This document shows positions 3,204 to 5,823 of a DNA stretch of 42,083 nt, in pieces. The stretch covers positions 1 through 42,083 of the forward strand of contig JAIESQ010000017.1 of assembly GCA_019745975.1 (NCBI GenBank), read 5' to 3'. Every line of letters starts with the position of its first letter. The first letter of the stretch is position 1. The notes beneath the pieces are model-generated. The model was not told where the DNA came from and ran no database searches. It was given only the letters and a program-made list of their open reading frames with translations. The position numbers and the translations under genes were made by a program. The DNA comes from Pirellulales bacterium (GTDB taxonomy: Bacteria > Planctomycetota > Planctomycetia > Pirellulales > JAEUIK01).

Positions 3204-3520
3204 GTCGATTGCCTCGAAGGGAAGATGGTGTTGTGCGGCGAGACCAGCCGGCGTTCCCTCGCCCAGCGGACGGTCGAACAATGACGCGCTTTCGGGCGCG
3301 GCGATCCTGCCCCACCCCAGGTGGTGATTCAAGCTTGCGGTACCAGACTTTCAAGTATAAGGCGACTTCTGGCCGCAAGCAGCGCCCGGCCGGAATTGTC
3401 GGCCCCAGCGGCGCCCGCGTTCCCAGCGCCCCAGACGTTAGAATTGGTTCGTCGGACTCGAATGGAACTCTTCCCGGTGTCTAGCTCCCCTCTTTCCTTG
3501 TGCGTGGGAGAAGGGTCGAG
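3204..3520. other. Divergent intergenic region
   Basis: This 317-bp stretch separates the minus-strand metzincin from the plus-strand kinase and must hold both promoters. A TATAAG hexamer at 3356-3361 could serve as a -10 box for the plus-strand gene, with TTGCGG at 3335-3340 upstream at a short 15-bp spacing. No RNA gene or repeat was seen. Confidence 0.4.
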
Positions 3521-4696
3521 GTGAGGGGAAAGGTGGTTGATTCGAATTCACAGATCATCGCTGTGCTGCGGCATTACCCTTCCGACTGTGCACCCGGTGC
3601 GTGGACGAAGGCCGCGTCCGGTTTCAGCGGGGCTGAGGTCTACCGACTCGAAACCCCTCGCGGCCCGTTGGCCCTGCGCCGCTGGCCCGCGGAGCACCCG
3701 TCACCCGAGCGGCTGACGTGGATTCACTCTGTCCTTACGCACGCGGTGGCCAACGGGTTTGACCGCTTGCCACTGCCGATCCGTGCCGTTGATGGCGTCA
3801 GCTTTGTCTCGAGCGGCGGCCGTTTGTGGGAGCTCGCCCCCTGGCTCCCCGGCGAGGCGGGTTTTCGCGCGCGATCAAGTCCTGCGAAGCTGACCGCCGC
3901 CATGCAGACCCTGGCCGAGCTGCACCGGGTGATGGCCAGCTTCCAACCGAATCCGCGGCCGGTAGGAACCTCGCCCGGCCTGGCTTCCCGGCTCGAACAG
4001 TTGCGCGGATTGCTCGCTGGCGGCGCGACCGCGATCGGCATGTACAGCGCCGCACATCTCACTAGCCCGAAGCGCAGCGAGGGGGTGCCCGCGTCGCCGC
4101 GTGATGACCGCGCCAGCCGCGTCGCGACGAACGATCCCGAGCACCAAGCGCCACGAACCCTTGCTGCGCTGTGGGCTAGTGTTACGCCTCCTGACGAATT
4201 GGTGGGCGAGGGTGCCGGCCTGTCCAGCAATGCCTTGCACGACGCCGCCAACGAAATCCTGAGTCATTTCGCGAGACGCGCTCCCGAGCTCGAACGTCGA
4301 CTAACTGCCGCCGCGAAGATTCGCGTCCCGTTGCAGCCAGCGCTCCGCGACATCCACGGCGAACACGTCTTGTTCGTCGGCGACCAGGTGACCGGCATTA
4401 TCGACTATGGCGCGATGCGATTCGAAACCGTGGCCGGCGACATCGCCCGACTGCTCGGTAGTCTGGCGCCGAACGACCAATCGAGCTGGCAAGCGGGGTT
4501 CGCGGCATACGAAACGGTCCGGCCACTATCTACCACCGAGCGCGAACTGGTCGGAGTGTTCGATTCGAGCGGCGTGCTCTTGGGGGCGATGAACTGGCTC
4601 AACTGGCTATTTGTCGAACAGCGTAAGTTCGCCAACCTCGCTCGGGTGCAAATGCGCATAACCGAGCTGCTCACCCGCTTGCGCGCCTCGGCATAA
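3521..4696 (+). CDS. APH-fold phosphotransferase-like protein with an in-frame palindromic insert
   Basis: A 391-residue cytoplasmic protein of the aminoglycoside phosphotransferase / choline kinase fold. GTG 3521 is preferred because GGGAG and AAGGG lie just upstream; GTG 3500 and GTG 3533 are alternatives. The N-lobe is recognisable from the FSGAEVYRLET nucleotide-binding region and the LALRRWP strand that should hold the ATP-binding Lys, here apparently Arg. The catalytic loop reads LRDIHGEHVLF, keeping the Asp but with His where the Brenner motif usually has Asn. The metal-binding Asp is in GIIDYGAM. About 40 residues in the middle (containing SPKRSEG and ending LAALWASV) are encoded by a palindromic repeat and are probably not part of the ancestral fold. 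Its substrate is unknown; such lone planctomycete proteins are not known resistance enzymes. Confidence 0.75.
   Translation: MRGKVVDSNSQIIAVLRHYPSDCAPGAWTKAASGFSGAEVYRLETPRGPLALRRWPAEHPSPERLTWIHSVLTHAVANGFDRLPLPIRAVDGVSFVSSGGRLWELAPWLPGEAGFRARSSPAKLTAAMQTLAELHRVMASFQPNPRPVGTSPGLASRLEQLRGLLAGGATAIGMYSAAHLTSPKRSEGVPASPRDDRASRVATNDPEHQAPRTLAALWASVTPPDELVGEGAGLSSNALHDAANEILSHFARRAPELERRLTAAAKIRVPLQPALRDIHGEHVLFVGDQVTGIIDYGAMRFETVAGDIARLLGSLAPNDQSSWQAGFAAYETVRPLSTTERELVGVFDSSGVLLGAMNWLNWLFVEQRKFANLARVQMRITELLTRLRASA
4060..4181. repeat. Palindromic element inserted in frame in a coding gene
   Basis: The ends form an inverted repeat: 4060-4083 pairs with 4158-4181 with 3 mismatches in 24 positions (core CTAGCCC...GCGCAGCGAGGG). 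The core element 4061-4180 is 120 bp, exactly 40 codons, and is open in the kinase frame. Inside is a direct repeat of CCGCGTCGC (about 4089 and 4117). Removing it would shorten the kinase to a more usual length. The terminal sequence resembles dispersed repeats in planctomycete genomes; that is recollection, not a search. Confidence 0.7.
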
Positions 4697-4749
4697 GCCT
4701 CGCCGGAAGGTGCTCGCGCGCGACCGGCTCGTCGCAAATAGGGGCTCGG

Positions 4750-5823
4750 CTACTTGATCGTGTGCCCTAGGATTGCGCTCTCCGCGAAGATTGCGTGATT
4801 CACCACCTGGCGGTCTTCCGACGTGTAGACGACGTGGATCTTGCCGTCGCGCGTCTGGATCGCCACAGGATAAGCAGCCGTGTCCCCCGGCTTGTTGACG
4901 ATATTGCGGCGGTGCGGATAGGTCTTGTCGTTGTCGGTCGAAATGGCCACGGTCAGCGGCATGCGGTCGCCGACGTTGGTGTCGTTGTAGACCAGCAGCA
5001 AATGGCCGTTTTGCAGCTTGATGAAGTCCACGGCGGAATTCGGGTTGGGGAATTGCGATTTTTCACCCTTGGTCCAGGTGTGGCCGCCGTCGTGCGACTC
5101 GCTACGAATGACAAAGCGATTCGGGTTCGACTCAAAGTCGCCGCCGGGGCGGCAGTAGGCGACGAGAAAGTTGTCGCTGATTTGCGCGGGGGCCGGTTGC
5201 AGATTGCCCTGGGGCGAGAAAATCCGCTGTGACTCGGTCCACTCCTTGGTTTCGTGGTTGTAGCGGAAAAAGAAACTGCACGTATCGGCGGCGGTCTTCT
5301 CCCGGTCTTCGCCGGTCTCGTGATACACGGGCAAGAGGTAATCGCCGTCGCCGAGCACAATCGGCCGACCGCGAACCATTGATCCCTGGTCAAAGGCCAG
5401 AACGTCGGAGTCGCTCCAAGTCTGGGCGCGATCGGTAGAGAGCTTGTACTTGATGCGCGAGCTCGACCAGGTCGGCCCGTAGTTCGTGACGTAGAACAGC
5501 CAGACGACCGCATCAGGAGCCTGCCAGATGGCGGCGTTGCCTTCCGAGCGGTTCGGCGTGTCGGCGATGATCGCCGGCCGCGACCACTGGCTCGTGCCCT
5601 TAGCGAGGCGAGAGCCGTACACCGCCGTGTCGCTGGCATACTCGCCGGCGCCGCCGTAATAGACGACGTATAGATCGCCGTTATCCAGCTCGGTGATCGA
5701 GGGGGGATGTTTGTACTTGCCGGGGACTTCCGGGCCGAACAAACGCTCGATCACAATGTCGTCCGCGGCGCGAACCGACGCCAATGGGGCTAGGCCAAGT
5801 AGGATTACAATCAGGTTTCTCAT
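4750..5823 (-). CDS. Secreted sialidase-like (BNR repeat) protein
   Basis: A 357-residue exported protein with a six-bladed propeller of the exo-sialidase type (BNR repeat-like, GH33-related). ATG 5823 leads directly into a signal peptide (MRNLIVILLGLAPLASVRA, cleavage after about residue 19). Asp-box motifs of the S-x-D-x-G-x-x-W kind are visible: SHDGGHTW is exact, while STDRAQTW and STDNDKTY are looser copies. A MVRGRP segment and several LPV/LLLVY strands fit the propeller. Planctomycetes carry many such proteins, and most have no tested sialidase activity, so the glycan substrate is open. AGGA lies about 10-12 bases before the start. The divergence from the family is moderate and no arginine triad could be assigned by eye. 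Confidence 0.8.
   Translation of the reverse strand: MRNLIVILLGLAPLASVRAADDIVIERLFGPEVPGKYKHPPSITELDNGDLYVVYYGGAGEYASDTAVYGSRLAKGTSQWSRPAIIADTPNRSEGNAAIWQAPDAVVWLFYVTNYGPTWSSSRIKYKLSTDRAQTWSDSDVLAFDQGSMVRGRPIVLGDGDYLLPVYHETGEDREKTAADTCSFFFRYNHETKEWTESQRIFSPQGNLQPAPAQISDNFLVAYCRPGGDFESNPNRFVIRSESHDGGHTWTKGEKSQFPNPNSAVDFIKLQNGHLLLVYNDTNVGDRMPLTVAISTDNDKTYPHRRNIVNKPGDTAAYPVAIQTRDGKIHVVYTSEDRQVVNHAIFAESAILGHTIK

Follow-up and report, generated by a model that had tools for sequence, protein, structure and literature searches.

REPINs consist of two REPs inverted around a spacer. They are dispersed, lie mostly outside genes and are accompanied by a RAYT gene that has the same repeats adjoining it, as set out in parts of Bertels and Rainey 2011 (PMC3116915). 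TnpA transposases of class 3, which carry a Y----Q motif, were reported principally from Planctomycetes and also from Acidobacteria and Proteobacteria in the relevant sections of PMC6006769. The same sections mention REP insertions in tnpA genes of subclass 2.4, where the reading frame was kept and loops or linkers are thought to tolerate the insertions. REPs and REP dimers located wholly within ORFs of several species are described in portions of a study by Di Nocera and colleagues (PMC3733652), with the verrucomicrobium Opitutus terrae, Thauera and Rickettsia conorii among the hosts; there, intragenic REPs code for 20-30 amino acids and clusters for 43-82. Rickettsia palindromic elements of about 150 bp occur in frame in unrelated genes, according to passages of a review (PMC10969869). 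In-frame intragenic REPs are already published for other phyla; the novelty of the locus described here lies in the host gene, the transposase class and the occurrence of this repeat family as such an insertion.

The window, a stretch of 42,083 nucleotides from a Pirellulales bacterium, contains a kinase gene with a palindromic repeat (Table 1). An earlier note had described this repeat as lying in frame within the gene, and this was borne out: two inverted 24-nt arms enclose a 74-nt spacer, and the frame of the host ORF is open throughout the element, with no stop and no frameshift. The size given there, 120 bp or exactly 40 codons, holds for positions 4061-4180, whereas the drawn arms extend over 122 bp in all; the arm consensus reaches 1-2 bases beyond them. 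As single-stranded DNA the 122 bases folded with -40.7 kcal/mol (z -5.65), a value equaled by none of 200 shuffles. A lone arm (-1.2 kcal/mol; 174 of 200 shuffles equal) folded no better than shuffles, and a related doublet on C51 was moderately above its shuffles (z -1.73; 12 of 200 equal). The G+C content of the element is 71%. A C[TC]AG foot was present in 30 of 34 arms. In one arm, the right arm of locus L007 (C182), GTAG stands in its place, which is the canonical REP foot. Type B arms directly followed by TTCG recur at C51, C52, C182, and C201. A search of positions 3400-4800 against Rfam gave a single match with an E value of 0.49, under the gathering score. Inspection by eye of the borders at 4060 and 4181 revealed no target site duplication; no precise empty site for the element was found among the orthologues, the closest of which has 50% identity.

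Table 1. Positions of the repeat element and its host gene in the window
Feature	Position	Strand	Remark
Host gene, ORF for an APH/homoserine-kinase-like phosphotransferase, 398 amino acids from GTG 3500	3500-4696	+	PF01636, E 2.9e-18
Left arm, REP type A (CACTAGCCCGAAGCGCAGCGAGGG)	4060-4083	+	22-nt core with 4 other exact matches in the genome
40 in-frame codons from the element (TSPKRSEG...LAALWAS)	4061-4180	+	
Doublet core, 74 bp	4084-4157	+	4061-4133 is 82% identical to C52:8946-9018
Right arm, REP type B (CACTAGCCCACAGCGCAGCAAGGG on the minus strand)	4158-4181	-	21 of 24 positions complementary to the left arm
About 14 extra residues beyond the element, without counterpart in the median orthologue	4182-4225	+	From the alignment; not explained by the element

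The arms belong to a dispersed family, as the earlier note had anticipated. With up to 3 mismatches allowed, the 22-nt arm core gave 35 matches in the 7.0-Mb genome compared with 1 for a reversed control. A search with the whole element detected longer relatives on C51, C52, and C182 with 76-82% identity over the left part. The doublets of C51 and C52, near-copies of one another, are 152 bp long and exceed the window copy by 30 nt. Elsewhere in this genome (C157, 27669-27883) a repeat is present twice together with its surroundings, 193 bp apart. With at most 2 mismatches allowed, the 22-nt form was found in 3 of 57 genomes; one of these is the own genome, and the other two have one match each. 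Of 296 genomes in the order, 25 matched a pattern that also admits a 23-nt form, and the control gave 0 among the rows listed. Genome G020 alone had 275 matches with one mismatch permitted (control 0). Its doublet lengths cluster, with 147 occurring six times and 132 five times, which may reflect descent of subfamilies, and 21 of 36 doublets measured from CTAG to CTAG are multiples of three. In a comparison of a 13.7-kb stretch from G020 with G077, G092, and G096, repeats were present or absent at shared places, the exact borders being obscured by divergence. Between G020 and G096, two species of one genus, most repeats of this stretch occupy the same places (L262 and L300, about 75-86% identity), and the copies therefore seem to persist. 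Our search of the literature on planctomycete REP/RAYT systems and Rhodopirellula repeats found no report of this exact repeat family.

The genome contains 15 Y1_Tnp matches; these arms occur in the fetched stretch of the C51 match alone. The C51 protein carries the motifs NHVHVV, FWTE, and YVRDAQ, which correspond to the HuH, W[TA], and Y----Q motifs of TnpA class 3. NCBIfam models for IS200-like and REP-associated transposases matched it weakly, below their cut-offs. Homologues were searched in 41 chosen genomes, comprising 21 of the 25 repeat-bearing genomes and 20 pattern-negative ones. Some match was obtained in 23 of the 41. Close homologues, with E values of about 1e-41 or better, were found in 9 of the 21 repeat-bearing and 2 of the 20 pattern-negative genomes. 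In one of the latter (G018) diverged repeats flank the transposase gene on both sides, and the other (G025) has a variant repeat. Thirteen close loci were fetched, the own locus included and a fourteenth left out. The Y and Q of the Y----Q motif were aligned in all 13; the position following W is variable, and in one row the start of the HuH motif is degenerate. A repeat adjoins the transposase gene in 10 of the 13 loci and is absent beside the gene in the remaining three (L356, L377, and L378); at 7 of the 10 the gene is flanked by repeats on either side, at distances of up to about 250 bp. At intermediate loci (L365-L367 and L379-L383) the stretch contained a repeat in 5 of 8 cases, and at distant loci (L368-L376) in 0 of 9. 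Several loci consist of a repeat-gene-repeat unit of about 620-730 bp. In L355 (1438-2060; G057), L357 (1444-2062; G002), and L362 (1440-2060; G018) a repeat, the transposase gene and an inverted repeat together occupy about 620 bp, and these units look like compact autonomous elements with ends of the same kind as those of the short doublets. Repeats were present in G019, G024, and G054 with no match to the transposase, so that decay or other transposases have to be allowed for.

In several respects the element resembles a REPIN: similar repeats are inverted and form a hairpin, the copies are dispersed, 27 of 28 units in the genome were not scored as in-gene by a crude codon test, and the same repeat adjoins a transposase gene on C51 as at most close loci. 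However, the foot is C[TC]AG instead of GT[AG]G, a lone arm barely folds, and the window copy is intragenic. Because the GT[AG]G foot and a stable single hairpin are not features of these arms, we call the element REPIN-like and not a canonical REPIN. With TnpA class 3, as far as the available sections of PMC6006769 describe it, the system shares the NHVH, WT, and Y----Q motifs, occurrence in planctomycetes, weak and atypical secondary structures next to the gene and many dispersed copies. It differs from the foot CnGA and the motif YV[VI][AENY]EQ printed there, in place of which C[TC]AG and YVRDAQ are found here. Like the intragenic REPs in the corresponding portions of PMC3733652, the doublet lies whole within an ORF, but those belong to GTAG- or CGTC-tagged families and many of their hosts are genes of DNA synthesis or repair. 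The insertions in tnpA subclass 2.4 differ in that, in the same sections of PMC6006769, the host is the transposase itself and the REPs are canonical. The likeness to the protein-coding palindromes of Rickettsia proposed in the earlier note held, in that the element works like them as a palindrome in frame within a protein gene. In contrast, close to half of the elements in R. conorii are located in ORFs according to the passages of PMC10969869, compared with 1 of 28 units here, and no CGTC was seen at the arm ends. By its partner gene the element belongs nearer to REP/RAYT systems than to the Rickettsia elements.

The host kinase gave a single match in its own genome and was matched in 48 of 57 genomes, the own genome included. 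The scan of named genomes yielded 73 kinase loci, some of which duplicate other genomes and appear as identical tree rows; kinase frames were read from 102 loci, some cut by contig ends, and gave 86 distinct rows. The orthologue alignment begins near position 3542. Between fixed anchors the window kinase has 121 residues compared with a median of 66 in 96 complete orthologues. Of these, 92 have 60-72 residues, and the others have 76 (L033), 83 (L134), 98 (L090), and 102 (L032). The excess over the median orthologue is 55 residues, of which the element accounts for 40-41. In none of the 102 orthologue loci did the part matching the kinase contain an arm; L099 and L111 gave weak matches with 3 mismatches, in both cases downstream of that part. 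The expectation that orthologous kinases would be without the 40 residues was thus confirmed. Since the orthologues have no such element, it is a gain in this lineage, situated in a loop of variable length. L032 and L090 carry other long insertions at the same loop, about 32-36 residues above the median. No inverted repeats were found in these two loops, and growth of the loop is therefore possible by other routes. In the tree, the window kinase and the three other rows with more than 80 residues were ungrouped, with 4 changes for 4 rows. A single origin of the long-loop kinases appeared in 0 bootstrap trees; judged by the well-supported branches of the sequence tree alone, it would be possible.

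The kinase gene looks intact. Its conserved residues are retained, with deviations in 4 of 54 conserved columns (rank 43 of 86 distinct rows), and its terminal branch of 0.55 is close to the median of 0.49. An AlphaFold2 model built with 40 sequences for the 384 residues translated from position 3542 had a mean pLDDT of 88.6 and a pTM of 0.86. The homoserine kinase 2ppq ranked first among the PDB matches, ahead of YtaA and aminoglycoside phosphotransferases; YihE came 16th. The model places the insert in a loop that joins two long helices (residues 145-173 and 229-257), and pLDDT fell below 50 at residues 185-214. The earlier placement between conserved kinase lobes was therefore loosely put, the position being a loop between these helices. 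The low model confidence suggests that the extra residues form a disordered loop. We infer from these features that the loop is read out and that activity is retained.

An improbable alternative is that the kinase has been inactivated, or is about to be, and that the open frame is an accident of a young pseudogene. Because the left arm core exactly matches other copies, the insertion may be recent and decay not yet visible, and loss of the kinase may be bearable. Against this, neither a stop nor a frameshift has accumulated, the conserved columns and the branch length are ordinary, a few other rows are also long in the loop that holds the insert, and no second copy of the kinase was found in the genome.

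Four of the six frames are free of stops in the window copy, and the same is true of the C51 and C52 copies. The frame used by the kinase is open in 4 of 5 other doublets (C51, C52, C204, and C99), and C182 has two stops in it. In G020, 19 of 37 doublets have no open frame at all. Since four of these five doublets of the own genome are open in the kinase frame, selection within the gene is not needed to account for it; the open frame is inherent in the element and does not prove selection. This bears on a further alternative, more improbable still, in which the insert was co-opted as a loop with a new function, such as docking or regulation, and is held by selection. The frame has been kept, and the 30 nt by which the copy is shorter than the C51 and C52 doublets are a multiple of three. 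However, an open frame arises in the doublets irrespective of the gene, the model has low confidence at the insert, and no second case has been established.

The share of copies within genes was estimated with a codon-score test, the threshold of which was the 10% quantile of coding segments; units less than 150 bases from a stretch end were dropped. In this genome, only the window copy was scored as in-gene among 28 units (31 units had been listed before under different settings). Beyond it, 2 of 90 units in G020, sampled from its listed places, and 3 of 51 in nine further genomes, taken from a few listed places each, passed the test, giving 5 of 141 across ten genomes. Four of these (L280, L282, L331, and L340) had no Pfam match. 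The fifth, L317 in G040, was considered as a second in-gene case because it passed both the codon test and a Pfam match to PF10712. It was rejected, as the repeat sits between two genes and relatives have stops in that frame. Positions 1356-3200 of L317 form a long open frame matching PF10712 (NAD-GH) antisense to two genes, which we take to be dnaK and clpB, and the match looks spurious. A unit in L262 (8256-8278) passed an earlier, looser test only and not the final one; its 194-residue frame has a helix-turn-helix match at residues 12-51, and the repeat lies further downstream. Frames of the own genome at L083, L021, L238, L008, L081, and L007 had no Pfam match, and at L016 the repeat is upstream of a FliW domain and probably precedes the start of that gene. 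By this crude test in-gene copies look rare. The count of copies in coding sequence called for by the earlier note thus yielded a single case in the own genome, and the wider idea behind its question, that insertions of such repeats into proteins are common through tolerance or selection, found no support. The same holds for the peptide SPKRSEG, which had been put forward as a recurrent tag of the family: it is the translation of one arm, and a second gene with it was not established. The rough base rate of one in-gene case per 28 units counts against common use as protein tags. Predicted tryptic peptides of the insert include SEGVPASPR and VATNDPEHQAPR.

Two further readings are scarcely credible: a lineage-specific protein loop whose DNA is palindromic by chance, to which the unrelated long loops of L032 and L090 lend some color but which conflicts with the excess of arm matches over the control and with a core common to other doublets; and, equally so, an assembly chimera misjoined at the repeat, which a genome in 204 contigs with dispersed repeats might invite but in which the flanks would hardly code, in one frame, for the two parts of a single kinase that has one match in the genome.

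The segment is thus very probably a copy of a REP doublet inserted in frame in a loop of an APH-fold kinase that is still functional. In the proposed sequence of events, one copy of the doublet, a REPIN-like non-autonomous repeat, would have been moved, most likely by a Y----Q class 3 HuH Y1 transposase like that of C51, and would have landed in the variable loop of the APH-fold kinase gene. The element is rich in G+C, and the TAG stops from its CTAG arms fall in a single frame on each strand; with the length gained divisible by three, the gene would stay readable. The kinase is then probably made with about 40 extra disordered residues, its function probably being kept because the loop lies outside the conserved core. 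We infer that activity was retained, and the insertion was probably neutral.

Since the likely partner transposase is present in the same genome and the host is well modeled, the neutrality of such inserts is testable. On a broader and rather unlikely reading, the Pirellulales-type repeat family, with its Y----Q transposase, C[TC]AG foot and G+C-rich open cores, would serve as an occasional source of protein sequence: its doublets, readable in several frames, would from time to time lengthen a working enzyme by about 40 disordered residues, and residues gained in this way could then be retained. The locus adds to the known cases of protein-coding palindromic insertions one from a planctomycete, and brings in a transposase class with little-described repeats.
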